The notes under the pieces were generated by a model, which was given only the letters and a program-made list of their open reading frames with translations, was not told where the DNA came from and searched no databases. Made by a program: the position numbers and the translations under genes. This document shows, one piece after another, positions 38,975 through 64,000 of a DNA stretch of 64,000 bases (the first letter of the stretch is position 1; the number at the start of each line of letters is the position of its first letter). Source of the DNA: an uncultured Lachnospiraceae bacterium (lineage in GTDB: Bacteria; Bacillota; Clostridia; Lachnospirales; Lachnospiraceae); contig CANQTG010000001.1 in NCBI GenBank assembly GCA_947626715.1, positions 1 to 64,000 of the forward strand. Direction: 5' to 3'.

Positions 38975-38990
38975 ACATCTTCTCCCAATA

Positions 38991-39767: not shown

Positions 39768-39776
39768 ATATTTTTA

Positions 39777-40544: not shown

Positions 40545-40573
40545 ACGCTACCCACAATAACCCCCATCAGCCA

Positions 40574-41455: not shown

Positions 41456-41499
41456 TATTCAATCACCTTATTTTTACCGATGTTTTTCACTTTCCAATC

Positions 41500-42747: not shown

Positions 42748-42785
42748 TTATCCTGTCCCTCCCTTTATTTTATCTATAAAAAACT

Positions 42786-44558: not shown

Positions 44559-44567
44559 ACGTCCCTC

Positions 44568-45626: not shown

Positions 45627-45647
45627 TTTGATAAACCATGCCTTCCT

Positions 45648-46475
45648 CTAACCTCTCAGTTTTCTTTTAACTTCCTCTTCCTTTGCAGTGAGTACCTTCT
45701 CACCTGTTCCCATGATTTTTTCCGTATCTCTGATATTCTTTACGAGCGCGCATAGCTCATAGGGCTCTATTGAAGCTTTCTGATCTGAACCATACATTGT
45801 CTTGTCTAACGTAATATGTCTTTCTACGGAGGCAGCGCCCGCTGCCACAGCGCACATACTCACCAATATCCCTTCTTCATGTCCGCTATAGCCCACCCTG
45901 CATTGGTATCTGTCTCCAAGCGTTTTTATCAGCTTCAGGTTCGCATCCTCCATCGGCATTGGATAGGTGCTGTTGCAATGCAGCAATTCAAACGGGCAAT
46001 CCCGCTTTCTGAATATTTCCACCGCATGATCGATCTCGCTTAACGTACTCATTCCCGTAGCAATAAAAGTATATTTTCCTTCTTTTGCAATCTCCGTAAG
46101 CAAATCATCTCTCGTCAGCATAGCAGACGCCACTTTATTATATTTACAGTTATATTGTTGTATAAAAAGCTGTGAGTCAATATCCCATGCCGACGCATAC
46201 CATTCTATCCCTTTTTCATGGCAGTATCTGTCAATCTCATCATATTCTTCCTTGCCAAACTCCAAGCCTTCCTTTTGGGCGCGCTGCGTTTCTCCCCAAG
46301 GACTTTGCCGAGGGCTGTCCAGATATTCTTTTGTATATACCTTGTCCACAGTCCGTTTTTGAAACTTCACCGCATCACATCCGGCCACAACAGCCGCGTC
46401 AATCAAACGCTTTGCTAAACGAATATCCCCATTATGATTGATTCCTATTTCTGCCGCAATAAATGTACGCATAAT
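45648..46475 (-). CDS. Short NeuB-family synthase (no visible C-terminal SAF domain)
   Basis: MRTFIAAEIGINHNGDIRLAKRLIDAAVVAGCDAVKFQKR...FIATGMSTLSEIDHAVEIF...LLHCNSTYP...GYSGHEEG...VERHITLDKTMYGSDQKASIEP. Trimmed to MRTF. Confidence 0.88.
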   Translation of the reverse strand: MMRTFIAAEIGINHNGDIRLAKRLIDAAVVAGCDAVKFQKRTVDKVYTKEYLDSPRQSPWGETQRAQKEGLEFGKEEYDEIDRYCHEKGIEWYASAWDIDSQLFIQQYNCKYNKVASAMLTRDDLLTEIAKEGKYTFIATGMSTLSEIDHAVEIFRKRDCPFELLHCNSTYPMPMEDANLKLIKTLGDRYQCRVGYSGHEEGILVSMCAVAAGAASVERHITLDKTMYGSDQKASIEPYELCALVKNIRDTEKIMGTGEKVLTAKEEEVKRKLRG

Positions 46476-46667
46476 GCCTCTCCCTCGCATAATATTAATA
46501 GTTTCATTTCCTCCTCTTAAATCAGCATCGGTTCAGAGCTTGTTAGCGCTACCCTTCTTTCTTTAGATGATACAAAATCATTTGGAAAATGTTTTATTTA
46601 TCTCTTGATATACTACCGCTAGCCTTATAAATATATAACATAAATCTCTCTATTTTACAACCACCAT

Positions 46668-46702
46668 CTTGCTTTTAATAAAGCTACGCCTTTAAAAGCA
46701 AG
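46668..46702. repeat. Perfect 11-bp inverted repeat overlapping the stop codon of 46692-47684
   Basis: CTTGCTTTTAA ... TTAAAAGCAAG; no U-tract, so not a classical terminator. Confidence 0.7.
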
Positions 46703-47684
46703 GCTTATTCCTACATTTTCTTTGATAAAACCATATTATTTTATATACATAATCCATTATCCAACATGGGCAAAGCGAAATAATCAATATTACAGGTATC
46801 GGTACATTACTGACCAATTTCCATTTATCCAAATATTTTATACATTGCCTAAAAGTGTATCCATGCAGCCTTCGTAATTTAATAAAACCAATCCACGAAA
46901 ACCACGTGCTGGAACTAAACTTTTTTATGACTGCCCGTTTTTCTTTGCTGTAAACATCCGGAAGTTCCATTATCGTTTTATAAGTCTTTTCAACAAAAAC
47001 CGATAAAGTTCGTTTTTCTTTTACATGTCCTGAAATTTCTAATGGCATCTCAAGAAGTGCCGGATAGTTTTCCCCTCCAAGGCAAAGCAGCAAGCCTTTA
47101 AAATCATTTATTTCGGCAATACTTCTAAGCACTATTTCTATATCCATATATTTTTCATCCGTAACGCATTGTTTTACATTCTCCACAGTATAGTTTTTAA
47201 ATATATCTCTATGGAGTATAGGTATCGCTAACATTTGTAACTTCCATGCACAATCCCTGAAAAATTCTATTCGGTCAAAATATTCCGTTGTTTCTTCTCC
47301 TTTTCGGTATAATGCATTATAAACAATAATATCATACTCTTTATCCAAATATTCCATTACCTTATCAATTCCCTCTATCCGTGGTAAAAATTTATCAGAA
47401 CAGTGCCAAAGATACTCAGCATCAACTTTTAACTTACTATCAGATACTCTCTGAATATCTTGCTGTGAATCATAATGAGCATAATGAACATTTTCAAATC
47501 CCAATTTGTGATATTCCTCAATAATGATTTCCAGACGTTCATCATCGCTTCCATCAAATAAGTATAAGCCTATATTTCTTTTATATAAAGGACTAACCAA
47601 CTTTCGTAATAATTCTCTCACAAAATCCTCTCTATCTTTGGTAAGGATACTAATAGCCAGCTTGTATTTATATTTTCTTTCCAT
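46692..47684 (-). CDS. GT2-like glycosyltransferase
   Basis: KLAISILTKDREDFVRELLRKLV...DAEYLWHCSDKFLP. Confidence 0.7.
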   Translation of the reverse strand: MERKYKYKLAISILTKDREDFVRELLRKLVSPLYKRNIGLYLFDGSDDERLEIIIEEYHKLGFENVHYAHYDSQQDIQRVSDSKLKVDAEYLWHCSDKFLPRIEGIDKVMEYLDKEYDIIVYNALYRKGEETTEYFDRIEFFRDCAWKLQMLAIPILHRDIFKNYTVENVKQCVTDEKYMDIEIVLRSIAEINDFKGLLLCLGGENYPALLEMPLEISGHVKEKRTLSVFVEKTYKTIMELPDVYSKEKRAVIKKFSSSTWFSWIGFIKLRRLHGYTFRQCIKYLDKWKLVSNVPIPVILIISLCPCWIMDYVYKIIWFYQRKCRNKPCF

Positions 47685-47696
47685 ATCTTTCCCTCT

Positions 47697-48620
47697 CTAT
47701 TCTCTATGATTTAGGCGATTTATACTTTCTCTTTCATTATGTAACATACTCAAATATTCTTTGCGAGTTTCCAATGCATTTTCATACATAAAACGCAATC
47801 GTTCTCTTAATCCGCGATATTTAACATTAGTTGATACATCTTCTAAATGAATTACCAAAATATCAGGAAGGTAAACCGTTAAAAGCCCTTTTTCTCTCAA
47901 TTTATATAATAAGGTATCTTCTTCTTTATAAAAAGCTTTTTTTTCAATAAGCATATCATATTTTTCAAAAAATTTTTCTGAAAATATCCAAAAGCATCCA
48001 TGAAGCATCACATCCTTTTTTACGAGCTTTACACACATAGGCTGATCATTCTTTTTAATAATATTTTTTAAACAGTTTTCTAATTTACGGATTTGCATAA
48101 CAAAAAAATAATAAATTACCATTAAATGTATCTTATCCAAAATTAACATTTTTTTTAGCCATATCATGTATCGCTTAATCTGCTCTTCCGTTTCCAACTG
48201 ATCTTCCGTCATATTAACATCTGCACCATATTTATTAATAATACGCGGTCCCGCCACTGCAAATTTATATTGTTCATAGTATTTTTTGATTTTTTCATAA
48301 AAAGCAGTTTCTAATAAAAGCGTATCATTATTCATAAGTATTAAAAAATTATATTTATATTTCCGATTTACATAATGGATTCCATAATTATTTCCACCCG
48401 AAAAGCTTGTATTTCCCTCATTGTGGATCAGATCAATATATTCATTTTTTCTATATCTTTTTTGCAGTAAGATATATGAATTGTCAGGAGAATTATTATC
48501 CACAATTACAATTTGATAATTATCCGTATCAATATTTTTTATTATATATTCCACACACTCAAAAGTTGTTTCAACTGCCATATAATGAAGTATAATAAAA
48601 ATTATTTTTTTTTCCATCAT
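47697..48620 (-). CDS. GT2 family glycosyltransferase
   Basis: KIIFIILHYMAVETTFECVEYIIKNIDTDNYQIVIVDNNSPDNSY...FLILMNNDTLL; start trimmed to MMEKKII (SD GGGAG). Confidence 0.85.
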   Translation of the reverse strand: MMEKKIIFIILHYMAVETTFECVEYIIKNIDTDNYQIVIVDNNSPDNSYILLQKRYRKNEYIDLIHNEGNTSFSGGNNYGIHYVNRKYKYNFLILMNNDTLLLETAFYEKIKKYYEQYKFAVAGPRIINKYGADVNMTEDQLETEEQIKRYMIWLKKMLILDKIHLMVIYYFFVMQIRKLENCLKNIIKKNDQPMCVKLVKKDVMLHGCFWIFSEKFFEKYDMLIEKKAFYKEEDTLLYKLREKGLLTVYLPDILVIHLEDVSTNVKYRGLRERLRFMYENALETRKEYLSMLHNERESINRLNHRE

Positions 48621-48788
48621 TTTACTCCCTTTATTAAACCAACTATTTTCATTTCCTTTTTTAATCAAATGAACTGTTGATTGCTTTTCTATAAACACAC
48701 TTTGTCTCAATCCTAACAATTTTATACGACTGATCCTTTGATATATGAAAATGTCTGATTAAATAAACGGCCTTTATATTTTTACCTT

Positions 48789-49928
48789 CTATTTATTGTT
48801 AATGTACTTAATGATCGGAAGCAATACAACTTCATTATCTACATTATGAACCGCATAATCTCTTATTTCACGATTAAGAGTCCTTTTAGGCTTATGTAAA
48901 TACAATTTATCAAGATATCTTACTATCTCTGCAATATCGACAGGCATATTATTATTAGGAAATACCAAGCCATATTTCATATCATTTGAAAAAAGATCGT
49001 CTTCAGCCCCTAGTATAACTGGAAGACCTTTTGCCAAATATTCTCTTGCTTTAATCGTACTTAATTTGGCAATATTATCTTTATATACTCCAAATGCTGC
49101 CAATCCAGCATCTGCAATATTATATAAATCATTCAATTCTTTACCAAACTTTGTCCCGTAAAATTTCACATAGTATTCCAGCCTGTATTTTTTTACTAAG
49201 TGCTTATATTTAAGGCATTCCGGCCCATCTCCTACAATATGCACATAGACCCTACTATTTCGTTCAACTTGATAATATTTACGCAATCCCTTAATGATTC
49301 TTTCATAACCATGATGCCTAAGGAAAAAAGCGACTGCAATCAAATGTATTTCATTTGAATTATATTCATCAGAAGGCTCCAATAAAGAAATGGATTTTAC
49401 ATTTACTCCATTCATTGTCCGAATTGTAGGAACTCCAAACAGCTTATCATCATCAGAATACGTTACAAATCTGTCAATATTTTCTTTATATTTGTGCCTA
49501 TAAATTATTTCCTTAACATACATAAATGCTGTATAATAATGTGAAAGCATTTCTTTTTTATATGGATATGTTGGAATTTCAACAATTATTTTACATGCAG
49601 GATATTTTCTTTTAATATCTTTTAAAAAAGCAAGATATAATTTATCCACATATATTCTTCTAATATATACAAAATCTGGATCAAGCAATTCATTTAAAGC
49701 CGATTGATACTCTCTTGTAAAGGAGCTACAAGGCATAAGTTCTTTTATACGCTGTACAAAGGTCCTTTTCGATGTTTTTATTAAAATTTCTTTCATTATA
49801 AATTTACGTGACAGCACTTCAATTTGCATTTTAATTTTCTTATTAACCCCTGATGAGCCAAAATTCTCCGCATAAATATAATATCCCCTTTTCATTGCAA
49901 ATTTTACTCCTCTATATATGTCTCCCAA
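48789..49928 (-). CDS. GT4-like glycosyltransferase
   Basis: EVLSRKF...VHIVGDGPECLKYKHLVKKYRLEYYVKFYGTKFGKELNDLYNIADAGLAAFG...STIKAREYLAKGLPVILG. Confidence 0.85.
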   Translation of the reverse strand: MGDIYRGVKFAMKRGYYIYAENFGSSGVNKKIKMQIEVLSRKFIMKEILIKTSKRTFVQRIKELMPCSSFTREYQSALNELLDPDFVYIRRIYVDKLYLAFLKDIKRKYPACKIIVEIPTYPYKKEMLSHYYTAFMYVKEIIYRHKYKENIDRFVTYSDDDKLFGVPTIRTMNGVNVKSISLLEPSDEYNSNEIHLIAVAFFLRHHGYERIIKGLRKYYQVERNSRVYVHIVGDGPECLKYKHLVKKYRLEYYVKFYGTKFGKELNDLYNIADAGLAAFGVYKDNIAKLSTIKAREYLAKGLPVILGAEDDLFSNDMKYGLVFPNNNMPVDIAEIVRYLDKLYLHKPKRTLNREIRDYAVHNVDNEVVLLPIIKYINNK

Positions 49929-51064
49929 TATTTTACCAATTTCTCTGGAGATAAATCTTGTACAAATGCTAATGCATTTTTGCTCAAATCATATCTCTTT
50001 TCATAACTATCTGCCATATTAAGCATTGCCTCTGCGAAATCACAAACTTCAAAACACTTCACTGTTTCAGCTCCACCACTTTCTTTAAAAGGAATCATCG
50101 CCGGAATATCAAAACTAATAACGGGAAGCCCCGTTTCAAACGCTTCCGTAACGCTCATGGGAAAACCTTCATATCTAGATGTTAACAAATAAACTGACAT
50201 TTCCGACAGCAATTCTCCTATATTTTCCACATGGCCCAAAAAAACAATTCTTTCTCCTAGTTTAAGTTCGCTTACTCTTTTTTCTAACTTTCGTTTCAGC
50301 ATTCCATCTCCTGCTATAAATAAATCCCATTCCTTATCTACTTTAGCAAATATATTAAAAGCTTCTATCAATAAATCAAGTCCTTTACTATAAACAAGCC
50401 TAGCACATGTAACAAAATGTTTCTTTGTCAATTTACTTTTTTTTTCATTTTTAAAACTTTTAGGATTGTAAATGACTTGACAATCAATATCTAAAAATTT
50501 TTTATATTTTTGAGCATAATCATGATTCAACACAATAACATGATCCAAGTATTTCGCATTCTTTTTAAAGATATTTTCATGATGGTATAGATAAATATAC
50601 TTTTCTCTAAAATATGCTTCAAAAGAATTGTGTTCCCACCCTATTGCCTTGAACTCATGGGAATATATTCGACACACTTCTCCTAAAATAATTGTAAGTT
50701 GCCACGAAGTAGCTATTACAGCATCATAATTCCCCTCTATTAGTGCATTCATTTTTTTTGAATAACTTTGAGGACAATATGCACGTTCCAGAATAATCGG
50801 TGAAAACAAATCATATACAAGCCATGGGGTCAAATGTGTCATTATGCGAAACAAGAATGATACTATATCTCCTTTATAGGGGAAATACTGCTTAATTTTT
50901 ATCTGGGGTGAAAGATAATATAAACGTTCTTTATTATCAGCTGTATTCATAGTAAAAATAGTCACCTCATGTTTTTTTGCAAATTCATTAGCCATAATAC
51001 AAACTACTCTTTGTTCACCCCCCATGCTTCCTATTGAATTAGTAAAGATAGCAATCCTGCTCAT
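49904..51064 (-). CDS. GT4 family glycosyltransferase
   Basis: IAIFTNSIGSMGGEQRVVCIMANEFAKKHEVTIFT...LLTSRYEGFPMSVTEAFETGLPVISFD. Confidence 0.93.
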   Translation of the reverse strand: MSRIAIFTNSIGSMGGEQRVVCIMANEFAKKHEVTIFTMNTADNKERLYYLSPQIKIKQYFPYKGDIVSFLFRIMTHLTPWLVYDLFSPIILERAYCPQSYSKKMNALIEGNYDAVIATSWQLTIILGEVCRIYSHEFKAIGWEHNSFEAYFREKYIYLYHHENIFKKNAKYLDHVIVLNHDYAQKYKKFLDIDCQVIYNPKSFKNEKKSKLTKKHFVTCARLVYSKGLDLLIEAFNIFAKVDKEWDLFIAGDGMLKRKLEKRVSELKLGERIVFLGHVENIGELLSEMSVYLLTSRYEGFPMSVTEAFETGLPVISFDIPAMIPFKESGGAETVKCFEVCDFAEAMLNMADSYEKRYDLSKNALAFVQDLSPEKLVKYWETYIEE

Positions 51065-51075
51065 AAAAGCGCCCC

Positions 51076-52260
51076 CTATTCTTTTTCTAAAATATGCCGA
51101 TAAATATCTTGCACACTACGATAAGCCACATCTTGTCTATGCATTTTTTTAACATATCTATAAGCTCGCTCTTTATATTCTTCACCATCACCTTCTAACG
51201 CCTGCAGCATTTTTATTGCAAGATCATGAATATCATTATTTTTAAACAGCAGCCCGAACTCATTCTCTCCTATTAATTCTGAATTAGCTCCACTATTTGA
51301 AGCAATTACAAGATTATAAGACAACATAGCTTCTAATGTCACTCGACCATATGCCTCACTCCGAGAAGGAACTATCTCTGCATCGACCATTTCCCGCAAG
51401 GAATTCATATCCTTTATATAACCCACAAAAAACAGATTATCCAAATCATGTTGACTTATATAAAGCTGTATTTCTTGCATATATTTTTTAGATTTAGTGA
51501 GAGATGTTGTGGTCCCTGCAAAATATATCTGAAATCGCCGTTTGTCCACTTTCATTTGATGAATTAAAACATTATCTGCCTCTACTACAAGTTTTTGATT
51601 TTTCCCCGAGCTTATATTTCCTGTAACCAAAAATGTAAATATATGGTCTTCTTTTCTTTTTCCTGCTAGAGGCACAGGGAGATTTTCTTCTATTTTTCTA
51701 GGAACAATCCCATCATATATTATTCGTGTTTTCTCATCAATCGTAAATTGTTTATAAAATTCATATAATGTTTTTGAAATAAAAATAACCATATCGCTGT
51801 TTTGGTACACATAATTCAAACTTGCTTCTTTGCCAAACATATATTCCAAATTATAATCTGCATCTCCATATTCACGAAAATGCCATACATGTTTGCAACC
51901 TGTTTTCGTTGCCACTTGCGCACCTATATCTATAACGCTTGAATTTGAATGGATGATATCTATCCCATTTTTTTTTACATATTGCGAAAGACGCATTACC
52001 GAAATTTTTTGGAACCAATGCATGAGCCTGAATAATCGTTTCTGCACACAAGACCACTCTTTAGGCTGCTGCCACCACCCAAAAAAGCACGGGAAAGTTT
52101 TTATTCCCATTTTTTTTAATTTTTTATCAATAGGACAGCCTCGATACAATACAATAACTGAAACATCATTTCCCAATTCTCGTAATCCATTAACCAATTC
52201 CACCAATGAATGATTTGCTCCACCCATTTTTCGTTCATGGGCAATATATAAAATTTTCAT
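51076..52260 (-). CDS. GT4 family glycosyltransferase
   Basis: MKILYIAHERKMGGANHSLVELVNGLRELGNDVSVIV...EIVPSRSEAYGRVTLEAMLSYNLVIASN. Confidence 0.93.
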   Translation of the reverse strand: MKILYIAHERKMGGANHSLVELVNGLRELGNDVSVIVLYRGCPIDKKLKKMGIKTFPCFFGWWQQPKEWSCVQKRLFRLMHWFQKISVMRLSQYVKKNGIDIIHSNSSVIDIGAQVATKTGCKHVWHFREYGDADYNLEYMFGKEASLNYVYQNSDMVIFISKTLYEFYKQFTIDEKTRIIYDGIVPRKIEENLPVPLAGKRKEDHIFTFLVTGNISSGKNQKLVVEADNVLIHQMKVDKRRFQIYFAGTTTSLTKSKKYMQEIQLYISQHDLDNLFFVGYIKDMNSLREMVDAEIVPSRSEAYGRVTLEAMLSYNLVIASNSGANSELIGENEFGLLFKNNDIHDLAIKMLQALEGDGEEYKERAYRYVKKMHRQDVAYRSVQDIYRHILEKE

Positions 52261-52494
52261 TTTTTATCTCCTCATACTTGTCAATTTTTATTTCCTTTAC
52301 GACATTTCATAGAAACAATCATTCCGGCTCATGCATTGATTTCAAAAAATTTCGGTAATACGTCTTTCAAGAAAGGCAGGATTTTAATCTTTAACTATTC
52401 ATTGCCCATATACTATTAATATCATATAATACTTAATATCCCTGATATATTCATTTTTTATAAATATCACAATAATATAATTCCACGTTCCGTA

Positions 52495-52908
52495 TTATCT
52501 CTTCTCTTTTTCCTCTAAACTCTTATTATTTTCCTTTTCTAGATCTCTAATCCTTTTTTCTAGCCTTGATATAGTTTGTATAAGCTGCCTTATTTTATTA
52601 GTTTGTTTCGAAACAATAGAAGTTAAAGATAGTAAAATACATAATATAAAAGCCGTTGCCCAAATAAACAACCCATTCATACTATTTTGAATGCCGACTA
52701 AATGATTTAAAAATACAAGCAAGTGAGAAAAAGCAATTAAAATCCCCATTACCACACCGACAAAAAGCCAAAGTAATGTATATTTTAGCGATAACATTTT
52801 ATTTTTCAAAAACACACACATCATTATAAAATAAAAGAAAACCGCAATAATCAAAACTATTCGTAATCTTTCCGGCAACATATTATGATCTCCTAATCCC
52901 AAAGCCAA
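52495..52908 (-). CDS. DUF2304-family small membrane protein
   Basis: Three TM segments plus C-terminal coiled coil (LIQTISRLEKRIRDLEKENNKSLEEKEKR), directly downstream of a DPM1-like GT2. Confidence 0.75.
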   Translation of the reverse strand: MALGLGDHNMLPERLRIVLIIAVFFYFIMMCVFLKNKMLSLKYTLLWLFVGVVMGILIAFSHLLVFLNHLVGIQNSMNGLFIWATAFILCILLSLTSIVSKQTNKIRQLIQTISRLEKRIRDLEKENNKSLEEKEKR

Positions 52909-53587
52909 GACGGCAAATAAGCAAAGCTATGCTCACTTTTATCATATAATAAACAGATTTCCACAAATTAATAGAGCTTTCCCCCGAAATACGTTCACGC
53001 ATGATAACCGGAATTTCCGTAATTTTTCCTCCATGCATAATAGCCGCCACAATAGCTTCCGGCTCCGGATAATCCTGTGGATAATCTCTAGCATATATAT
53101 GAATAAAACGCTTATTAACAGCACGGAAGCCGCTTGTAACATCTTTCACTTTTTTCCATGTGCAAAACCAGATGATCACGCTCAAGATCTTAATCCCAAG
53201 CCTTCTGATATTGGATGATTGAAAGCCCTCCTTCTCCATAAAACGGCTGCCGATCACAATATCTGCCTCTCCGCTTTCGATTTTTGGGATCATTTCTTGT
53301 ATATATTGAACATCATGCTGTCCGTCTCCATCTACCTGTATTGCGATATCATAATCATTTTCTACCGCATACTGGTAACCATTTTGCACCGTTCCGCCAA
53401 TTCCCAGATTAATCTGATGATCCAAAAAATTATAACCACTTTCCACACAAATTTTTTTTGTATTATCCTGAGACATATCATTTATTACAAGATAATCATA
53501 TTGTGGATAATTTTTTTTGATTTCTTCAACCACTCTACTTATATTTTTTTCTTCATTATAGGCGGGAACAATAATTAATACTCTCAT
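52883..53587 (-). CDS. GT2 DPM1-like glycosyltransferase
   Basis: MRVLIIVPAYNEEKNISRVVEEIKKNYPQYDYLVINDMSQDNT...VDGDGQHD...VTSGFRAVNK. Confidence 0.93.
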   Translation of the reverse strand: MRVLIIVPAYNEEKNISRVVEEIKKNYPQYDYLVINDMSQDNTKKICVESGYNFLDHQINLGIGGTVQNGYQYAVENDYDIAIQVDGDGQHDVQYIQEMIPKIESGEADIVIGSRFMEKEGFQSSNIRRLGIKILSVIIWFCTWKKVKDVTSGFRAVNKRFIHIYARDYPQDYPEPEAIVAAIMHGGKITEIPVIMRERISGESSINLWKSVYYMIKVSIALLICRLGFGIRRS

Positions 53588-55464
53588 TTCAATTTATCTC
53601 TTCTCAGTTCAACAATCTGGTAACCGCCTACATAAGCGATCTCCGCGTCTTGAAAAATTATGGGTATTTTTTCTTCTTCTGAATAAACAATATAATCCGT
53701 ATCCAAATAATAAATAATTTCTGAAAATCTAGGATTTCTGTCCAGCTCGTGAGTATAAATACTTTGGTAAAAGGAATAATATGTATACTCAAAATCCCCT
53801 ATTTTTTCAGAAGAAGATCTCATTGAGCATGGATATATAATATTAGAGGAATATTGTCTCAAATAATGTCCTAAATCTTCTGGCGCTATTACTCTTATTT
53901 CCGAGCGCATTCCATTATCAAGCATATAATCTGCTACTTCTATTATATTTCCATCTAATTTATATTGATTTGTAGCCTTTTCTACATCACGAAAAATGGA
54001 CCACTGTGGCGTTCCCCACACATACAATAAGAGAGCGCCAATGACTACAATAATTTTTCTGTTTTGATTCAGTGTTAAAACCGTCTCTGAAATCGCATAT
54101 GCTATCATGTACAGAATCGGTATACACCAAAACAATCTATAATAAACCACTTGCGACGTTATATAATTGGATATTATATTATAAAAAAAAGGATTTAGAA
54201 AAATCAACCATAACACAAAACAGCCTTTCCCAAAAACGCATTTATTAATAGTATTTTTTCCAAAAATAATATAAATAAAACTTAATATCCACAAGAGAAT
54301 CAAAGGCGTCATTTGAAAAAATTTCTGCATCCAATATCCCCATGTAATATCAGGATCAATCCCTAGCATCCCCGCCCGAATTCCCTTGGAGAATATTTGA
54401 TATAAAATCATAACGGCAAATACACCAACAAATGCCACTACCCCTCCTATATAAGGAAGCAGTTTTTTTACCTTTTTCCAGCCAATTCTAAACAAATATG
54501 GCAGTCCGTATACGAAACAAAATATCGGTGCTAAAATAAGTCCTACAATTTCACATTCCACACATGCTAATATAATAATAAGATTATATATCCAATACGA
54601 TATTTTATATATATAGTCTTCTTCTTGATAAAGATACAAAATACTATCCAGTAAGCAAAAAAGTAAAATATTTAATACCGCGACTCCGTACCACGGATAC
54701 TTGACAATCCAAAACTCCCCCCAAATATCAGACTTATTTACAACAGACCACATTGCCAATAAGCAATATACAAGTAAAAACCAGAATTTTTGATGTTCAT
54801 TCTTATTAATTTTATTTGCCAATGAAATTGTTACACACATCCATATAATAATTAAAGTCACTCCAAAAGCAGAATGAGCTAATGTAGTGGGACTTATTCC
54901 AAAACTATCCGCCCAATATGCTATATATATCGGCCAAGACGAGATATCAGCACGTGAAAATAAACTTGTTTCATTTAATCCATTGCTCGCTTCTGTAAAT
55001 GTTGGATTTAAATCATTCCTAACAATAGCCGTTGCTGCCTTAGTGAGATAATAACTATCATCAGTATTTCCTCTATACTTCAAGAAAAAAGCATTAAAAA
55101 TGAAAACAAAAATAAGTAATACAACAAAAATATATTTTGCAGGATAATGATAATTCATTATAATATGATTCGCTATACGCTTTTTTTTAAAGAACAAATA
55201 TACTCCAATAAACATCGATAGAAAAAGCGCTATGTCATAAAGGTGCTTTAATACGTTAAAGGTGCAGGAGCTCTTCCATGCAAACAACCAAATCACTTGA
55301 AATAATGCCATCGAGTAAAAAAAACCTCTATATATATAGCTAAAACATCTGCCTGACATATTTAAGATCTCTGATATAAAATATCCAAGCGCCATCAATA
55401 TCAAAGGGTATAATAAGATAAATGAGTATACCCCCATTGGCACATCTTTAATATATCTTAACAT
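53584..55464 (-). CDS. DUF6077-like multi-TM protein (GT-C-type candidate), full length
   Basis: 626 aa, many TM segments; YRGNTDDSYYLTKAATAIVRNDLNPTFTEASNG; colinear with the split pair at 1536-3454. Confidence 0.7.
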   Translation of the reverse strand: MLRYIKDVPMGVYSFILLYPLILMALGYFISEILNMSGRCFSYIYRGFFYSMALFQVIWLFAWKSSCTFNVLKHLYDIALFLSMFIGVYLFFKKKRIANHIIMNYHYPAKYIFVVLLIFVFIFNAFFLKYRGNTDDSYYLTKAATAIVRNDLNPTFTEASNGLNETSLFSRADISSWPIYIAYWADSFGISPTTLAHSAFGVTLIIIWMCVTISLANKINKNEHQKFWFLLVYCLLAMWSVVNKSDIWGEFWIVKYPWYGVAVLNILLFCLLDSILYLYQEEDYIYKISYWIYNLIIILACVECEIVGLILAPIFCFVYGLPYLFRIGWKKVKKLLPYIGGVVAFVGVFAVMILYQIFSKGIRAGMLGIDPDITWGYWMQKFFQMTPLILLWILSFIYIIFGKNTINKCVFGKGCFVLWLIFLNPFFYNIISNYITSQVVYYRLFWCIPILYMIAYAISETVLTLNQNRKIIVVIGALLLYVWGTPQWSIFRDVEKATNQYKLDGNIIEVADYMLDNGMRSEIRVIAPEDLGHYLRQYSSNIIYPCSMRSSSEKIGDFEYTYYSFYQSIYTHELDRNPRFSEIIYYLDTDYIVYSEEEKIPIIFQDAEIAYVGGYQIVELRRDKLK

Positions 55465-55502
55465 CTATTATATAAACCTCCTGCATTCGCCAACAAAAAT
55501 AT

Positions 55503-55763
55503 TTATATTACATAGCCGCTTCTTAAAATAATTCCAGCCAGCTTTTTATTATCTATACTGTAACACATAATCATTTCGATATTTTCTTTTATCTTGATTC
55601 TAAGGCTTCCATGCAACAGAAAATATAATTCATTTATAAATCTATTCTCATCACTGCCTATACGCAACAATTCTCCTCTTCTAAAAGCATCTGTATTTAT
55701 TATATTATAAATTTTTCCCCTTAACAACTGCCCTTCCTTCAACAATTTCGTAAATTGTATCAC
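55503..55763 (-). CDS. Hypothetical small ORF (86 aa), overlaps the ABC gene 3' end
   Basis: ORF only; no recognisable family; may be spurious or a remnant. Confidence 0.2.
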   Translation of the reverse strand: MIQFTKLLKEGQLLRGKIYNIINTDAFRRGELLRIGSDENRFINELYFLLHGSLRIKIKENIEMIMCYSIDNKKLAGIILRSGYVI

Positions 55764-57537
55764 AGTTTTGAATTGTATTCAACCTATGTGCTACTATAAT
55801 CAAAGTAAGCTTCCCTTGTAAGCTATCAATGGCCTCCATAACGGCAGTCTCAGTTTCCATATCAAGCGCTGCCGTTGCTTCATCCAGTATGAGAATTTCC
55901 GGCTTATGATAAAGTGCTCTGGCAATAGCAATACGCTGTTTCTGACCTCCAGAAAATCTTATTCCCCGCTCCCCAACAACTGTTTCTAAACCATCTGGTA
56001 AGCTCTCAATAAACTCTTTTAATTGGGCTTGTCTCAACGCCTCCCAAATGTCATCATCATCTATCTCGCTTTTCGGGATTCCAAACGCTATATTGTTTCT
56101 AATAGTATCATCCAGTAAAAACACTGCTTGAGGAACATATCCCACTATATCTGCCCACATCTCAGGAACAGTAGATATATCTATTCCATCTATCATAATA
56201 GCTCCGCGTTGAGGAAGCAATAGTCCTAAAATTATATCCAATAACGTAGTTTTTCCAGCTCCTGACACCCCTATAAAGCCAACCGACTCCCCTTTTTCAA
56301 TCGTTATAGAAACGTCTTCCAATACTGCTTTTGTTTGATTTTTATACTTCCATTCCACATGATTAATTATTATACTTTTCTTAAAAGTTAATACTTTTTT
56401 TTGTTTTACAGAAGAAATGTCAAAATCAATATTATCTATCTGGCTTTCTTTTGATCCATTTGTCTCTTTCACATTTTGATATACATTAGCCAAACAAGCT
56501 CTATAATATACAATATCCGTCAAACGGCTTGAAATTTTCCCTATGGAGGGAAAAAGTTTGAACGCAGCCATTGCAAAAGCTCCTAACACGGGAACAAAAT
56601 TAGACATATTCTCCGGCGAGACCACCAAGCGTATACATACAATTCCAATTATTCCGCTTACGCACACCCCTTCAGTAATACGATCCGGGCTATTAGAAAT
56701 AGTGCCATTTATCTTGGAAATTTTTCTTTCCATCTCCGAAATTGTCTTGTATTCTCCGATAAAGAATTTCTTCTTTTGCATAACATATATTTCTTTAATA
56801 CCTGTTATCATTTGAAATATTGTTTTACTTTTTAATGCGCCTATCTCGCGGTATTTTCTTCCAATTTTCTTCATTATTGGCTTAAAGCCAAATACTATTC
56901 CTGCCGATACGATCGCCATCACTATTAAAACTCCAACAGCTATTACAAAATCTTCTACAAACAAAAAAGTACCGATCAATAGAATAGTAAATACTTCCGT
57001 CAGTATTTGTAATAAATCCGACAATATTGCATATACTCCATTTATATCTCCCGTACAGCCTCTAAGTACCTCAGAACTGTTAATATCCAAATAATATTCA
57101 TACGGCCGTCTCATATACGATTCCAACATATTATTAGAAATTTCCATTTGAATTCTTGAGCTAAAGGCGTACTGCATATAATAAGAAAAAATCATATATA
57201 AATTTTTAAATATATATATAAAAATTAATCCTATTCCCATTCCCAAAAGCAGCGAAGAAGCAGAATCCAGATCAAATATATATATTAGCTTTTCTGCCAG
57301 CCAATAATTCTCCGCTCGTTCTGGATCTACTACTGCTTGTATAAAAGGAACTATCGCTGTTACTCCCAACAGTTCCAAGAGAGAGCTTATTAAAATCGTT
57401 AGCAAAACTAATATCATTCTTCCTTTCTGCTTTCTGTTTAAAATATAGTTTAATTCCCTTATTATTTGTAATAGATTTGAAAAATTACTCTTCATTTTAT
57501 TTCTTGTATGATGTTTTATAAAAGCACAAAGCACCAT
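55705..57537 (-). CDS. ABC transporter, fused TMD-NBD (PglK/MsbA-like)
   Basis: GVSGAGKTTLLDIILGLL, FSGGQKQRIAIARAL, EILILDEATAALD. Confidence 0.94.
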   Translation of the reverse strand: MVLCAFIKHHTRNKMKSNFSNLLQIIRELNYILNRKQKGRMILVLLTILISSLLELLGVTAIVPFIQAVVDPERAENYWLAEKLIYIFDLDSASSLLLGMGIGLIFIYIFKNLYMIFSYYMQYAFSSRIQMEISNNMLESYMRRPYEYYLDINSSEVLRGCTGDINGVYAILSDLLQILTEVFTILLIGTFLFVEDFVIAVGVLIVMAIVSAGIVFGFKPIMKKIGRKYREIGALKSKTIFQMITGIKEIYVMQKKKFFIGEYKTISEMERKISKINGTISNSPDRITEGVCVSGIIGIVCIRLVVSPENMSNFVPVLGAFAMAAFKLFPSIGKISSRLTDIVYYRACLANVYQNVKETNGSKESQIDNIDFDISSVKQKKVLTFKKSIIINHVEWKYKNQTKAVLEDVSITIEKGESVGFIGVSGAGKTTLLDIILGLLLPQRGAIMIDGIDISTVPEMWADIVGYVPQAVFLLDDTIRNNIAFGIPKSEIDDDDIWEALRQAQLKEFIESLPDGLETVVGERGIRFSGGQKQRIAIARALYHKPEILILDEATAALDMETETAVMEAIDSLQGKLTLIIVAHRLNTIQNCDTIYEIVEGRAVVKGKNL

Positions 57538-57560
57538 ATTCCCTTCCTTATTTTAATATT

Positions 57561-57590
57561 ACGACACTATATTCATTAATATATTGTCGT
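57561..57590. repeat. 30-bp near-perfect palindrome
   Basis: ACGACAcTATATTcattAATATAtTGTCGT between the GT6 gene and the ABC gene. Confidence 0.75.
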
Positions 57591-57620
57591 TTTCCATACC
57601 TCACTTGTTATTATTTTAAT

Positions 57621-58373
57621 CTATCCGTCTTTTCTCACTTCATCTATACCTCTCAATTTATTATATCCACCCCATTTTCTCTTATCTAGCATGATTATCT
57701 TTTTTTCAAATGGCAATTTACTATCTTCTGGAAATAAATATGCCGGCGAAATAATCTTGTATTTTATTTCACTTTCATGTTCATAAATATACTTATTTAA
57801 ATGACTTTCATCATGCCACTTTGCAATTATATTACGCTCCAAATCTATTATGATATTTTTAGATAACTCTTCCATTAATGCAATATACTCATTTGCTTTT
57901 CCTCCATTAAACCCACCCGCAAAATAAGCTTCGCCCTCACCCATAGGTATATACGCTTTAGATAATGGGTTTCTATCATATGTAAAATCATACGCTGTTC
58001 TATCAAAAGGGCCCGGGGACAATGTCACGAAAAGACTTTCTTTTCCGGTTGGCAATATTTCTTTCTCTTCAATTTTTTCTTGAACAATTAAATTTGCATT
58101 CATAAATATTATATAATCATACATTTTTAATTCATCTTTTATCCTTAAAAAATATTCATAGCGATTTAACGTCGGAAAAGGCCAAGGCTCTTTTTTTTGA
58201 TAGCAGGGATGTACTTTTTCAATTATATTATTCATTATCACAGCATTATCTGTAAAAACATAATAATGTTTTTCTGAATTTATAAGAAAATTTTTTTCCG
58301 TATTTTTATAAAAAAGCGGCCAAAAAATTGCATATTCTCCAGTACATACATATAAGATCGCCACTTTACTCAT
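57621..58373 (-). CDS. GT6 family glycosyltransferase (ABO / alpha-1,3-Gal(NAc)T-like)
   Basis: YDYIIFMNANLIVQ (NxN in place of DxD, as in bacterial GT6), YFAGGFNGGKANEYIALMEELSKNI, IIAKWHDESHLNKYIYEHE, ISPAYLFPE. Confidence 0.9.
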   Translation of the reverse strand: MSKVAILYVCTGEYAIFWPLFYKNTEKNFLINSEKHYYVFTDNAVIMNNIIEKVHPCYQKKEPWPFPTLNRYEYFLRIKDELKMYDYIIFMNANLIVQEKIEEKEILPTGKESLFVTLSPGPFDRTAYDFTYDRNPLSKAYIPMGEGEAYFAGGFNGGKANEYIALMEELSKNIIIDLERNIIAKWHDESHLNKYIYEHESEIKYKIISPAYLFPEDSKLPFEKKIIMLDKRKWGGYNKLRGIDEVRKDG

Positions 58374-59202
58374 TTTTTATAATCCTCCTTATTTTCCTTA
58401 TATACTTAGAAGCTTTCAATTTTATGTATCTAAAAAAGACTATCTCCGGTTCACCTAGCCACTCAATATAATATTTTATTGTGATCCTCAGTCTCTCATC
58501 TTTTTTTAAACCATTTCTCCATTTTCTAAAATCAGTATTAATCAACCTTTTTAATTTCATTGAAATATGCCTTTCTCCCACCCCATAACACCTTATAAGC
58601 GGATTTGATAGATATGCTATTTTTGTATAACAACATGCCCTCAGTAAAAAGGCCAAGGCTTCAGCTCCCTGTACGGAAGGAAAGTTTCCGCATTTGAAAG
58701 CAAGCGAAGAATGTATCAGCAATGAGCTGAAAAAAATCAGACGATTATGTAACAAATCCACAATACTGTAAGTGCCTGTAGGAAGATATCTGTCATAAAC
58801 ATTAGGTGGAACATTCTTAGATTTTTTATCCACATGTACATTTGTACAATTTATCTGTACTTCGTAATGGAGACAGGAAAATATTTGAGCTTCTAATTTT
58901 GCTGCCAGCCATTTATCTCCACATTCTAAAAAAGCTATCCATTCTCCATGTGAATTTTTTATACCATGATTCACATATTCGCTTTTTTTCCAATCATTAT
59001 CACACGGCACGTATTTAACTCTATCATCTTCCCCTATTAATATTTCTATCTTCTTATTTACATGTGGATCCAGTCGATTAGCGCATAATAAAACTTCCAA
59101 AGAAACAACCGTTTGTTTTAGCACGCTTCTAACACTATCTTCCAGCAACTCAATATCTTTATCTACTAATACAATAACTGAAACCAAGCATCTATTCTCC
59201 AC
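58366..59202 (-). CDS. GT2 family glycosyltransferase
   Basis: LVSVIVLVDKDIELLEDSVRSVLKQTVVSLEVLLCANR...GEWIAFLECGDKWLAAKLEAQ. Confidence 0.8.
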   Translation of the reverse strand: MENRCLVSVIVLVDKDIELLEDSVRSVLKQTVVSLEVLLCANRLDPHVNKKIEILIGEDDRVKYVPCDNDWKKSEYVNHGIKNSHGEWIAFLECGDKWLAAKLEAQIFSCLHYEVQINCTNVHVDKKSKNVPPNVYDRYLPTGTYSIVDLLHNRLIFFSSLLIHSSLAFKCGNFPSVQGAEALAFLLRACCYTKIAYLSNPLIRCYGVGERHISMKLKRLINTDFRKWRNGLKKDERLRITIKYYIEWLGEPEIVFFRYIKLKASKYIRKIRRIIKNE

Positions 59203-60169
59203 CCAGTTTTTCCCCCTTTAACTTTCCATATAATTCTATAAATTTACGGATTCCTATCATTTTTGAAATTGCAAAAATCATTTTATCTTTCCAATAATTA
59301 CTATATTTAAAATAATCAAGATATTTTTCAGCTTCGTTTATCCATCGTGTTGCATCTTCAATATCATATATAAAAACCGCTTCTAAACAAACTTCTCTAA
59401 TAAGATTCGCATATAATGTATACAACTGATTTTTTAATATAGGATTTATCTCACGCGTCTTGAAATAGTTTGTCCAGTCCTCCAGATTTCTCCATCTATC
59501 ATCATATCGCTTAGGATTATATGAATGTATTATAGAACCGCTTCGTACTCTGTAATAATAATAAGGTTCCATTCCACATACTTTTTTTGCTTCTATAATA
59601 ATTTTATCGATTAATTGGAAGTCTTCCGCCAATCGATTTAATTTAAATTGAAAATTTTTCTCCTGCCAAAAACTACGTCGAAAAATTTTCCCCGCAGCCG
59701 ACCAATTCGCTCTGATTTTGGTTGTTTCCAAAAGAGCTTCTTCTCCCGTCTTACCATCGAATAATGATCTGTCAAGTCTTTTATCCAAAACGATTTGGCT
59801 TTGCTCAACTTTATAAATTCCCTCGGATAAAATAACATCCGGATCATATAATTCAATATTTTCTGAGGCTTTCTCAAGCGCCCATTCTTCAATATAATCA
59901 TCCGAATCTATAAATAAAAGATATTTCCCGCCAGCGCTTCCAATACCGCAATTTCTCGCATCTGATAAACCGCCATTATTTTTATGTATAATTTTTATTT
60001 GAGAATATTTTTGTGCATAAATATCACATATACTACCGCTTTCATCAGTAGAGCCATCATCTATTAAAATCAGTTCATAATTGTCACAACTTTGTCTTAA
60101 TATACTCTCAATACAGTCTTTTAACCAAGCAGCAACATTATATACTGGTACGATTATACTAAAGAGCAT
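59192..60169 (-). CDS. GT2 family glycosyltransferase
   Basis: MLFSIIVPVYNVAAWLKDCIESILRQSCDNYELILIDDGSTDESGSICD...FIDSDDYIE. Confidence 0.95.
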   Translation of the reverse strand: MLFSIIVPVYNVAAWLKDCIESILRQSCDNYELILIDDGSTDESGSICDIYAQKYSQIKIIHKNNGGLSDARNCGIGSAGGKYLLFIDSDDYIEEWALEKASENIELYDPDVILSEGIYKVEQSQIVLDKRLDRSLFDGKTGEEALLETTKIRANWSAAGKIFRRSFWQEKNFQFKLNRLAEDFQLIDKIIIEAKKVCGMEPYYYYRVRSGSIIHSYNPKRYDDRWRNLEDWTNYFKTREINPILKNQLYTLYANLIREVCLEAVFIYDIEDATRWINEAEKYLDYFKYSNYWKDKMIFAISKMIGIRKFIELYGKLKGEKLGGE

Positions 60170-60193
60170 CCTTCCCTCCTGATTTTTAACACT

Positions 60194-61045
60194 TTACATT
60201 CTTATCCAATTCCCACATTTAATATCTGGACATTCAGCCATATTTTGCCACTGTTTAGGTGCTATTACTATTTTCCGGGGATTTTGATTCAACCATGAAG
60301 CCCACCAGCTAAAACTACTATTGGCAATAATATTATGCTTACAATTTGCCATTAATTTCATATCATGAATGCTGCTCACTGCATCTCCTAACTCTACAAA
60401 AAATACATTTTCAAAAGCCCCCATAAATTGTTTGCTCCATTTCATATCATCGGAAAATACATAGTATTGGGGATTTTCCATCCTTTTCTCTATATAGTGA
60501 ATCGCATTCTGATAATACTCTTTTGTACATATACCCCCATATTTGCTTATATTTTCTAAATAATCTCCTCTTCGAATATGGACGCTGACAGAATCACCCT
60601 CCCTAATTCTATGTAAAATATCATCTTCTTCACGCGTCACAGATTCTGGAAAGGTAAAATCTTCCAATAATTCACCTCTAATATCTATGAAATACTTCTC
60701 GCTTTGCCAATAACCCTCTAATAATGCACACCTTTTATTAAACACCTCCGACAGATATACGCTTGGGACATGTTCTATATATAATAATTCATTAAATCCT
60801 ATATGCTTTTCAAGCCATCTAATCAATGAATTGTCTCTTAATTTTTTTTCTAATTCAGAACACGTCCGCAACTTTATTGGGAAATACTTTAACTCCAATT
60901 TACGAGATTCATTCACATTTTCATCAAAAAATCTCCAAATATCTACTTTAACTTTAGGATAACGTTTCTGCAATTTACGGTACAATGCATACTGAAACAT
61001 TTGATTTCCCAATCCACCATATATTTTTACTATAGGCATCCACAA
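60194..61045 (-). CDS. GT11 alpha-1,2-fucosyltransferase
   Basis: VKIYGGLGNQMFQYALYRKLQKRYP, DSVSVHIRRGDYL, YYVFSDDMKW, HNIIANSSFSWWASWLN. Confidence 0.94.
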   Translation of the reverse strand: MWMPIVKIYGGLGNQMFQYALYRKLQKRYPKVKVDIWRFFDENVNESRKLELKYFPIKLRTCSELEKKLRDNSLIRWLEKHIGFNELLYIEHVPSVYLSEVFNKRCALLEGYWQSEKYFIDIRGELLEDFTFPESVTREEDDILHRIREGDSVSVHIRRGDYLENISKYGGICTKEYYQNAIHYIEKRMENPQYYVFSDDMKWSKQFMGAFENVFFVELGDAVSSIHDMKLMANCKHNIIANSSFSWWASWLNQNPRKIVIAPKQWQNMAECPDIKCGNWIRM

Positions 61046-61056
61046 TATCTCCTTTG

Positions 61057-62175
61057 CTAAAATTCAAATCCTTTCATTTCTATCAGCCATTTCCTTTTCA
61101 TCCTATGCTTATAAAATATATCCTTTATATATCTCCAAGACTGTGGAAGTATAATTTTTATAATATTTGTAAACATATATTGATCCATTAATATTTTCTT
61201 CCCTTGGGGTCTATTTATTTTATACAATGATTTTCTTAACCACCAAAAAAACAATTCTTGCTTATACGTATCGGGATCATATATCTGGTTCCGATCGTTA
61301 GCACTAACTAACAAACGGATTAAGTTTATATTTTCCTCCACATTTCCATATATTTCTACATCACGCATATGTGTGTATAACTCTTTCTGCCTCTCTGTGC
61401 TATCAGGCAATAGTCGGGTCATACATCTAATCTTTGTTACATCTGCAAAATTTCTTTGCTCCTGCTGTTGAATATTACTAATTCGATTCCCATAAATCCT
61501 TGATATAAATAGCACCTCTTGTTGACAATACAATTTCCCATGTTCGATACATCTAACCCACATATTATAATCTTGTGCTATTTTTATATCTTCAGCATAT
61601 TTAATACCATTATCCTCTAAAAATTTTTTTCGAAACATAACTGTCGGATGAGCAAATTCAATATTGGAAAAAGAGAGTCTTATTCTAATTCTTTCCTGCG
61701 CAAATTCTCTATAAACACCGGTAAATTGAGATTTACGCGCAAATTCCTCTCGTAATGGAACAATATCTTTTCCACTATATAAAAAAGAAACACAAGCTAA
61801 TACATCAATTTCTTCATGACTATTCATATATAAGACTTGTCTTTTAATACGATTTTTAAAGCAAATATCGTCCGCATCCATTCGCGCAACATAATCCCCT
61901 TTTGCCTCCTGCAAAGCAATATTCAAAGTAACTGTCAGTCCTTTATTTTGGGTATTTCTAATAAGACGAATCCTGTTATCCTCATATTTTATTTTTCTTT
62001 CATGTCGATAATCCATCAGAAATTTTGAACACCAGTCGTCAGAAGCATCATCAACTATAATAAATTCTATATTACTATAACTCTGATCTAATATACTATC
62101 CATCGCAATACGCAAGTATTCAGTTTTTGTATTATATACACCCATAATAATTGAGACAAGAGGTTCGTTTTTCAT
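61057..62175 (-). CDS. GT2 family glycosyltransferase
   Basis: PLVSIIMGVYNTKTEYLRIAMDSILDQSYSNIEFIIVDDASDD...VARMDADDICFKNRI. Confidence 0.93.
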   Translation of the reverse strand: MKNEPLVSIIMGVYNTKTEYLRIAMDSILDQSYSNIEFIIVDDASDDWCSKFLMDYRHERKIKYEDNRIRLIRNTQNKGLTVTLNIALQEAKGDYVARMDADDICFKNRIKRQVLYMNSHEEIDVLACVSFLYSGKDIVPLREEFARKSQFTGVYREFAQERIRIRLSFSNIEFAHPTVMFRKKFLEDNGIKYAEDIKIAQDYNMWVRCIEHGKLYCQQEVLFISRIYGNRISNIQQQEQRNFADVTKIRCMTRLLPDSTERQKELYTHMRDVEIYGNVEENINLIRLLVSANDRNQIYDPDTYKQELFFWWLRKSLYKINRPQGKKILMDQYMFTNIIKIILPQSWRYIKDIFYKHRMKRKWLIEMKGFEF

Positions 62176-62176
62176 T

Positions 62177-63391
62177 TTAACATCCTATTAATTCTATCCA
62201 CTTACTAACCATTCGGGACACATCTAGATCAGCTATTCTATTTTCAATATTACTTTTAAAGAAAAGATATAACTTTTGATCTGTAAGTATTCGGATTATA
62301 CCTTCCGCTAAAAGTGTTTCCTCTTTTGTTATTGGTTCACGCCCATCATACATATTACCATCGCACTTTGGCGTCAAAATTCCACATGAGGAAATCTCTA
62401 TATTGTCTGTTACTCTCTTATACGGATCCGTTAAAGGCGCCAATATCTCTCTAGGACCATAATCAATATCTGTTGAAACTACAGGAACTTTTAAACATAT
62501 TGCCTCTGCTATTACATTCGAAAACCCTTCATGCACAGAGGATACCACAAGCGCCTTTGCTCTTGCCAAATATGGAAATGGGTTTCTGCAAAATCCTCCA
62601 AATACAATATTTTCTGACAAATCCAATTCTTTTACCAATCTCTTCAAATATTTTTCTTGGCTTCCCTTTCCCAAAATAATAAGTTTAATATCTGGTATTC
62701 TTTCTTTCACCTTCACAATCGCTCTAATTAAATGCCAAAATGCTTTAGGAGGTTCCAATCTTCCCATGGCAACTATTAAATGACTGGTTTCTACTCTTTC
62801 CAGAATCCCTTTTTCAGGATTCTCATATGACAATTCTTTAATTCTTGCAACATCAAAACCATTTAAGATTGTTACCACCTTTTCTTTTGGAAGTCTATAA
62901 TTATCCACTAATTCACTGCTTACTCCTGCAGATACTCCTATTATATAATCTGCATATTTATAGAATATTTTTACAAGCGGATCAACAATATATCGATATA
63001 CTTTCTGCGTTTTAAATGCAGAAAGATTACAATGCACTGATAACAAAACTTTACAGTACTGTTTTCCAGAAACAACATTAGCAATATTAGCGCTATCCAT
63101 AAAACTTATTACTGCCGTATATTTTTTTTTCTTTTTTAACTTTCTCAATCTAATAACTCTTAATAAAAACACATATATTTGATAAAATATATTCTGCCTA
63201 TCCTTAACAGGCAAGACACCCAGATCAATCAATCTGCCTTTATATGGAAAAACGATATTACTAATATCATTTAGTATAATATCAATTTCCCAATCATCAG
63301 GGAAATTCGTTACCATATTAGACAAAATCCTCTGTGCTCCGCCTTCATTCAAAGATGATATTACAAACGCCACTTTTTTCCCCATTTTCAC
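62177..63391 (-). CDS. GT4 family glycosyltransferase
   Basis: VAFVISSLNEGGAQRILSNMVTNFPDDWEIDII...VSSVHEGFSNVIAEAICLKVPVVSTD. Confidence 0.94.
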   Translation of the reverse strand: MKMGKKVAFVISSLNEGGAQRILSNMVTNFPDDWEIDIILNDISNIVFPYKGRLIDLGVLPVKDRQNIFYQIYVFLLRVIRLRKLKKKKKYTAVISFMDSANIANVVSGKQYCKVLLSVHCNLSAFKTQKVYRYIVDPLVKIFYKYADYIIGVSAGVSSELVDNYRLPKEKVVTILNGFDVARIKELSYENPEKGILERVETSHLIVAMGRLEPPKAFWHLIRAIVKVKERIPDIKLIILGKGSQEKYLKRLVKELDLSENIVFGGFCRNPFPYLARAKALVVSSVHEGFSNVIAEAICLKVPVVSTDIDYGPREILAPLTDPYKRVTDNIEISSCGILTPKCDGNMYDGREPITKEETLLAEGIIRILTDQKLYLFFKSNIENRIADLDVSRMVSKWIELIGC

Positions 63392-63392
63392 T

Positions 63393-64000
63393 TTAATCCT
63401 TATATATTAATTTTTCTTTTTTTATTCGATACCTTTTTAATATTCCCAGCAGTACGCATGTCCAATTTAAGCCTATTATTTTTAACATACAGCGAATTAT
63501 CTTTTCCTCCCTTTCTTCTGTATAATCCAAATAAAAAAGCAGTTTTTTTATCATTCTAAACATTTCTTTTTTTTCTTCTTTTTCAAATAAATACATATTT
63601 CCTAAAATATTATGACAAAGCGACTTTGCAAACGTTTTGCGAAATGCCAAAAGCAGCTCATTATCCAGCTCCTTTTCATCTAAATATGCCTCCCAATCAA
63701 TCAAATTCAAAAGTTCATCATACTTCCACTGTTTATTCCTTAATGCAGAAGTGGAATTCTCACCAAATCGACGGTAAAAATAAAAAGAACTTATCATTAC
63801 TACACAATCTGCTTCCAGTACTACTCTATCAATTAATGCAAAGTCTTCTGCCAGTCTCCCTTTAGGAAATCGAAATCTATGTTGTTTCCAAAAATCCAAA
63901 CGATAACATTTCCCGCACGGGCTCCAGTTAGAGGCTGTTTTCATCGTTTTTATAAGTGTATCTCTGCCAGACATACCTTGATAATCTTTAGATTCCCAAT
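63393..64000 (-). CDS. GT2 family glycosyltransferase, C-terminal part (5' end beyond window)
   Basis: Frame stays open to 64000 (...WESKDYQGMSGRDTLIKTMKTASNWSPCGKCYRLDFWKQHRFRFPKGRLAEDFALIDRVVLEA); parallels KIRANWSAAGKIFRRSFWQEKNFQFKLNRLAEDFQLIDKIIIEA in 59192-60169. Confidence 0.8.
   Translation of the reverse strand, partial: WESKDYQGMSGRDTLIKTMKTASNWSPCGKCYRLDFWKQHRFRFPKGRLAEDFALIDRVVLEADCVVMISSFYFYRRFGENSTSALRNKQWKYDELLNLIDWEAYLDEKELDNELLLAFRKTFAKSLCHNILGNMYLFEKEEKKEMFRMIKKLLFYLDYTEEREEKIIRCMLKIIGLNWTCVLLGILKRYRIKKEKLIYKD

Follow-up and report, generated by a model that had tools for sequence, protein, structure and literature searches.

Linked GT6 and GT11 glycosyltransferase genes in a Lachnospiraceae polysaccharide island, a recurrent bacterial pair with a possible role in ABO-type branches

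The window analysed here consists of the first 64,000 nucleotides of contig CANQTG010000001.1 (assembly GCA_947626715.1), from an uncultured Lachnospiraceae bacterium. It carries two genes that an earlier note on this DNA had singled out as a possible blood-group-like pair, one of glycosyltransferase family 6 (GT6) and one of glycosyltransferase family 11 (GT11); the coordinates of all features are collected in Table 1. Both family assignments were borne out. The GT6 product, 250 amino acids (aa) in length, had PF03414 (GT6) as its sole Pfam match (E 1.8e-30, 106 bits for a cut-off of 25), passed the NCBIfam model NF041524 (family 6 glycosyltransferase, 268.8 bits for a cut-off of 250) and contained the motifs FMNANL and WHDESHLNKY as the note had quoted them. 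The sole Pfam match of the GT11 product was PF01531 (E 7.6e-36, 124 bits for a cut-off of 23.9), with the HxRRxD motif present as HIRRGD. Judging by its ribosome-binding site, this gene probably starts at the ATG at 61039 rather than at the TTG at 61045. GT11 is located 1,820 bp upstream of GT6, within the 2 kb claimed, and both belong to a single run of genes. From the gene at contig position 63393–64394 down to position 55705, all genes share the minus strand; neighbours are at most 25 bp apart or overlap slightly, except for the 83 bp that follow GT6. The order is GT2 (63393–64394), GT4, GT2, GT11, GT2, GT2, GT6 and an ATP-binding cassette (ABC) exporter.

When the GT6 product was compared with solved structures using phmmer, the closest relative was BoGT6a from Bacteroides ovatus (4AYJ, E 4.9e-51, residues 3–241), followed by the human ABO transferases (E ~1e-28). 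The match to BoGT6a is close enough to fix the fold of the window GT6. BoGT6a (PDB 4AYJ, 4AYL, 4CJ8) makes an A-antigen-like product from 2'-fucosyllactose (PMC3961637). The alignment of the two enzymes is full-length, and most of the BoGT6a substrate contacts listed in PMC3961637 are kept in the window GT6: Thr10, Tyr13, Trp66, Thr70, Arg73, Asn95-Ala96-Asn97, Thr134, Gly157, Trp189, His190, Asp191, Glu192, Lys231 and Arg243. These include the catalytic Glu192, within HDE, and the diphosphate-binding Lys231. The triplet NAN, of the NXN type shared with BoGT6a, replaces DXD and is the hallmark of the metal-independent bacterial GT6 clade, to which the window enzyme would belong by this sequence criterion. 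The donor motif at positions 155–157 is AGG in both proteins (YFAGG in the window, YYAGG in BoGT6a, a user of uridine diphosphate (UDP)-N-acetylgalactosamine). In the human enzymes, the A synthase has Gly268 and the B synthase Ala268 (PMC4202792). The AGG motif favours a predicted A-type specificity for the window GT6, with N-acetylgalactosamine (GalNAc) as the donor sugar. It could instead be an alpha-1,3-galactosyltransferase producing a B-type or linear alpha-galactose (alpha-Gal) structure. The donor-site motif, of which 28 different forms were seen across bacterial GT6, does not predict the donor perfectly; this bacterium very likely makes UDP-Gal, and no UDP-GalNAc epimerase was singled out. 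Given the motif shared with BoGT6a, we regard a galactose donor as somewhat unlikely.

The genomic context of GT6 was explored with a GT6 alignment built without regard to gene neighbours and used in one scan of genome contigs. The scan gave 252 GT6 relatives; the best 80 of these 252, with flanks of up to 10 kb, are referred to below as the named GT6 loci. A GT11 profile match was present within 5 kb of GT6 in 58 of the 80 loci, and in 42 of the 54 whose flanks reached 5 kb or more on each side. In the 48 loci with flanks of about 10 kb, 37 GT11 open reading frames (ORFs) were situated at 0–5 kb and 4 at 5–10 kb (binomial p 1e-7, indicative only); this drop beyond 5 kb therefore reflects adjacency rather than simple co-occurrence within a sugar cluster. 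At a distance of 1.5 kb or less, GT11 was found in 39/80 GT6 loci versus 0/50 control loci, consisting of 30 GT8 and 20 GT32 loci with 1.5 kb flanks from the window's own bacterial family (Fisher p 7e-11, to be read as indicative like the preceding value, the 80 loci having been chosen for similarity to the query, the controls coming from one family and relatedness persisting after collapsing). Chance as the reason for their proximity is rejected on the basis of both the controls and the distance profile. Collapsing at 60% identity left 37 linked, 7 unlinked and 7 undecided clusters. In five of the seven unlinked clusters a GT11 was located elsewhere in the genome; the genomes of the other two, Acinetobacter and one 1.4 Mb Helicobacter metagenome-assembled genome (MAG), gave no GT11. 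GT11 was present in 68 of 397 genomes of the window's family and is far more widespread than GT6, so that GT6 predicts GT11 and not vice versa. Bacillota contributed 33 of the named GT6 loci, with many Clostridia (Lachnospiraceae, Gemmiger). The pair also occurred in soil and marine bacteria and in cyanophages; the loci concerned include Chitinophagaceae, Mucilaginibacter, Pelagibacter and a Planctomycetota MAG. The pairing is ordinary among bacteria possessing GT6, the two genes being close or even fused in most of them.

Fusion was observed in three loci, where GT6 and GT11 form one ORF with each domain above its Pfam cut-off. The Planctomycetota and Hoeflea fusions are neighbours in the GT6 tree. 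The Gastranaerophilales fusion is placed elsewhere and has the reversed domain order, so that at least two origins of fusion are needed, one for each order. These proteins are possible one-enzyme makers of A/B-type trisaccharides; a limited literature search found no mention of such fusions. In addition, 71 phage records encode GT6, most of them Synechococcus phages or other cyanophages; two cyanophages with GT6 had been counted in 2014 (PMC3961637). In the five phages that were read (L028, L029, L033, L034 and L035, from Synechococcus and Prochlorococcus), GT11 adjoined GT6 or was found at 1.5 kb or less. A search of IMG/VR with the window GT6 alone gave no match. Linkage, fusions and controls indicate that GT6 and GT11 are functionally coupled as families, and the same coupling may be expected of the window pair. 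The cross-phylum linkage and the natural fusions also back the logic of the earlier note, in which an H-type fucosylated galactose is converted into an A or B structure.

The supply of nucleotide sugars was compatible with such a pathway. The note had proposed ManC as a source of guanosine diphosphate (GDP)-mannose on the way to GDP-fucose, and the gene is indeed of the ManC type; as it also claimed, the gmd and fucose synthase genes are not in the window. A profile search of the genome located gmd on another contig (C10:25721–26734, 531 bits for a cut-off of 415) and, directly after it, fcl (C10:26824–27744), whose product is 55% identical to E. coli Fcl. These two genes rule out the absence of a GDP-fucose source, which the note had named as a ground for refutation. 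Two galE-type epimerases were above cut-off in the genome. With gmd, fcl, manC and the two galE genes present, the genome can, as predicted from its gene content, make both GDP-fucose and UDP-Gal.

We propose that GT11 would add fucose from GDP-fucose, provided by the genome's own ManC, Gmd and Fcl, in alpha-1,2 linkage to a beta-linked galactose on a growing lipid-linked polysaccharide unit. GT6 would then add GalNAc, more likely, or Gal, in alpha-1,3 linkage to that same fucosylated galactose. The result would be a branched trisaccharide of A or B type, GalNAc(or Gal)α1-3[Fucα1-2]Gal, and the unit bearing this branch would leave the cell within an exopolysaccharide or capsule. The contig as a whole (95,370 bp) is a single long polysaccharide locus, with an exopolysaccharide-type polyprenyl glycosylphosphotransferase above its family cut-off on the same strand (contig 85779–87308), and this layout fits a lipid-linked exopolysaccharide or capsule. 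The sequential action of GT11 and GT6 on one galactose of the polysaccharide is the best explanation of the observations, with a probability of about 0.62.

Several observations weigh against this scheme, the main one, which holds down our confidence, being a Ser in the acceptor pocket. Besides coming from Clostridia and grouping with Treponema, the window GT6 differs from BoGT6a by Pro, Ser (Ser118) and Tyr in place of Asn69, His122 and His239. His122 is an acceptor-pocket residue that touches sugar in BoGT6a (PMC3961637), and position 122 is His in 70/93 and Gln in 18/93 relatives; two further acceptor-pocket residues, Thr134 and Glu192, are retained. Because of the change at 122 the acceptor is uncertain and may be a different one. 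The alpha-1,2 linkage is the one expected of GT11, a family whose membership does not fix the linkage, as it includes an alpha-1,3 enzyme, HhFT2 (PMC4202792). Two GT2 genes separate GT11 from GT6, and no beta-galactosyltransferase was identified. The nearest GT6 and the nearest GT11 relatives of the window sit in different loci, and the agreement between GT6 and GT11 distances was weak among divergent pairs (r 0.22, with 129 of 5000 permutations as high). Co-inheritance of the exact window pair is not supported by these comparisons; with their nearest relatives in different loci, the two genes were not inherited together from a known pair.

It is possible that both enzymes act on the same polysaccharide but on different residues, in which case the fucose would not be on the galactose used by GT6 and no ABO-type trisaccharide would be formed. 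The intervening GT2 genes, the Ser118 in the acceptor pocket and the linkage made by HhFT2 are all in line with this, and fucose may serve in several places in this bacterium, with a second GT11 on another contig of the same genome and a weak O-FucT-like ORF at 36630–37547. The linkage across phyla and the two independent origins of fusion are hard to explain unless both enzymes usually share one acceptor, and we consider separate residues unlikely. The ORF at 36630–37547 matched O-FucT below threshold (24.4 bits for a cut-off of 31.5) and gave weak phmmer matches to POFUT2 and FUT8 around an HIRRTDH motif; it is possibly another fucosyltransferase.

We also considered whether His or Gln at position 122 marks a fucosylated versus a plain acceptor. 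The four Acinetobacter loci (L086, L091, L093 and L099) all have Gln at 122, a TGA donor motif and no GT11 in the genome, and the mammalian alpha-1,3-galactosyltransferase, a user of unfucosylated Gal, has Gln at the equivalent position. The distinction is suggestive only, as Gemmiger loci with a GT11 about 3 kb away also have Gln. The four Acinetobacter loci are candidate makers of linear alpha-Gal.

The pair lies in a region of unusual composition. In 2 kb bins, the G + C (GC) content is 51–58% (about 54%) over the first 32,000 positions of the contig; it drops sharply to 28–43% between 32 and about 72 kb, after which it returns to ~50%. GT6 and GT11 have 30% and 33% GC, for 46–57%, mostly 52–57%, in other sampled stretches of the genome. 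GT6 was above cut-off in 4 of 397 genomes of the family, including that of the window, in a family sample covering over 300 genera. It was found in 1 other of 398 genomes drawn from the phylum, and in 0 of 9 other genomes of the genus that were searched. A maximum-likelihood tree built from 94 GT6 sequences pairs the window GT6 with a Treponema sequence (support 100/90) and places it outside the clade holding 32 of the 33 named Bacillota GT6; it does not group with BoGT6a. The low GC and the placement with Treponema lead us to conclude that the polysaccharide island, GT6 included, was probably acquired horizontally.

The earlier note had presented the pair as candidate blood-group-like mimicry. 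Under a reading as mimicry of host antigens, the island would be retained for an A/B-type coat that shields the cell from host immunity or attaches to lectins of the host. The predicted product would indeed be A/B-like, the GC of the island is still foreign, and BgtA of Helicobacter mustelae makes A antigen (PMC4202792). As a default reading mimicry found no support: the same pair is carried by the Chitinophagaceae, Mucilaginibacter, Planctomycetota, Pelagibacter and cyanophage loci described above, which have no host bearing ABO antigens, and GT6 is rare in the family and genus of the window. We therefore hold it to be improbable for this island. That soil and marine bacteria and phages carry the pair argues against an origin in host mimicry, although in a gut bacterium its presence may still lead to recognition by antibodies.

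The enzyme kinds involved are already known. E. coli O86 resembles the window, as judged from its published description, in having a GT6 (WbnI) and a GT11 (WbwK) in one polysaccharide pathway, leading to a B determinant (PMC4202792). It differs in being a Gram-negative lipopolysaccharide O-antigen system with a B-type donor, whereas the window pair is split by two GT2 genes in what is probably an exopolysaccharide or capsule locus. H. mustelae BgtA is likewise a GT6, an alpha-GalNAc transferase acting on H-type acceptors (PMC4202792); unlike the window, the Helicobacter isolates L104 and L108 have their GT11 elsewhere in the genome, unlinked to GT6. Cyanophages P-SSM2, S-CAM9 and B23, like the window, carry GT11 near GT6, here within 1.5 kb, and they differ by a GT6 with DXD instead of NXN and by being phage genomes. 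With a single exception, the bacterial GT6 enzymes known in 2014 came from Gram-negative organisms (PMC3961637). Among the papers searched, none dealt with a combination of GT6 and GT11 in Firmicutes of the gut. Less to be expected were how widely the pair occurs, the existence of fusions and the number of Clostridia involved.

GT6–GT11 linkage offers a simple genomic sign for candidate producers of ABO-like sugars, without showing mimicry, and points to many candidates in Clostridia and to natural GT11–GT6 fusion enzymes. The natural antibodies against A and B are generally attributed to stimulation by bacteria; to our knowledge, few bacteria with the responsible ABO-type enzymes have been described. 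We argue that the two genes make up a general bacterial module, one that did not originate as an imitation of hosts. A broader proposal, which we advance tentatively and rate a little short of even, sees GT6 and GT11 as a widespread module that has been put together repeatedly, in bacteria and cyanophages and also as natural fusions. ABO-type trisaccharides would then be common among bacteria and serve general, non-mimetic ends, and gut Clostridia would have acquired the module several times and may represent a large unrecognised source of anti-A and anti-B priming.

Table 1. Coordinates of the GT6–GT11 pair, of its neighbours in the window and of the natural fusions in other genomes.
Feature	Position	Strand	Remarks
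GT6 transferase, NXN (NAN) type	57621..58373	minus	donor motif YFAGG; predicted alpha-1,3-GalNAc (or Gal) transferase
GT11 fucosyltransferase	60194..61045	minus	motifs HIRRGDY, GGLGNQMFQYA, NSSFSWWASWL; predicted alpha-1,2-Fuc transfer to beta-Gal
GT4 glycosyltransferase	62177..63391	minus	Pfam profile; same gene run
GT2 glycosyltransferase directly upstream of GT11	61057..62175	minus	Pfam profile
GT2 glycosyltransferase between GT11 and GT6	59192..60169	minus	PF00535, 118 bits
GT2 glycosyltransferase, overlaps GT6 start by 8 bp	58366..59202	minus	PF00535, 33.6 bits
ABC exporter (membrane + ATPase domains) downstream of GT6	55705..57537	minus	candidate flippase/exporter of lipid-linked glycan
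ManC-type mannose-1-phosphate guanylyltransferase/isomerase	28332..29684	minus	PF00483 + PF01050; possible GDP-mannose source; normal-GC part, outside island
Low-GC island, window part	32001..64000	.	~40 kb in all, right edge about contig 68–74 kb; contains GT6 + GT11
GT6-GT11 fusion	L114:9995-11626		Planctomycetota MAG; 543 aa
GT6-GT11 fusion, ~195 extra N-terminal residues	L095:9413-11587		Hoeflea
GT11-GT6 fusion (opposite order)	L100:3774-5363		Gastranaerophilales; 529 aa

Other parts of the window also relate to glycan assembly. At 44568–46490, a NeuB-family synthase (247.6 bits) lies beside a fusion of a KdsC phosphatase with a GmhA-type isomerase; no cytidine monophosphate (CMP)-sugar synthetase was recognised among the ORFs read, and the product may be an unusual nonulosonic or other ketosugar acid. 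Genes for a cytidine diphosphate (CDP)-3,6-dideoxyhexose are found at 29730–30884 and 37640–44558, with RfbF and RfbH above cut-off and a CDP-glucose 4,6-dehydratase-like gene. They are near an acetolactate-synthase-like thiamine pyrophosphate (TPP) enzyme, and a yersiniose-type branched 3,6-dideoxy sugar is possible. The contig contains three similar ABC exporters, at 26573–28312, 34799–36691 and 55705–57537, which perhaps mark three glycan assembly units side by side.

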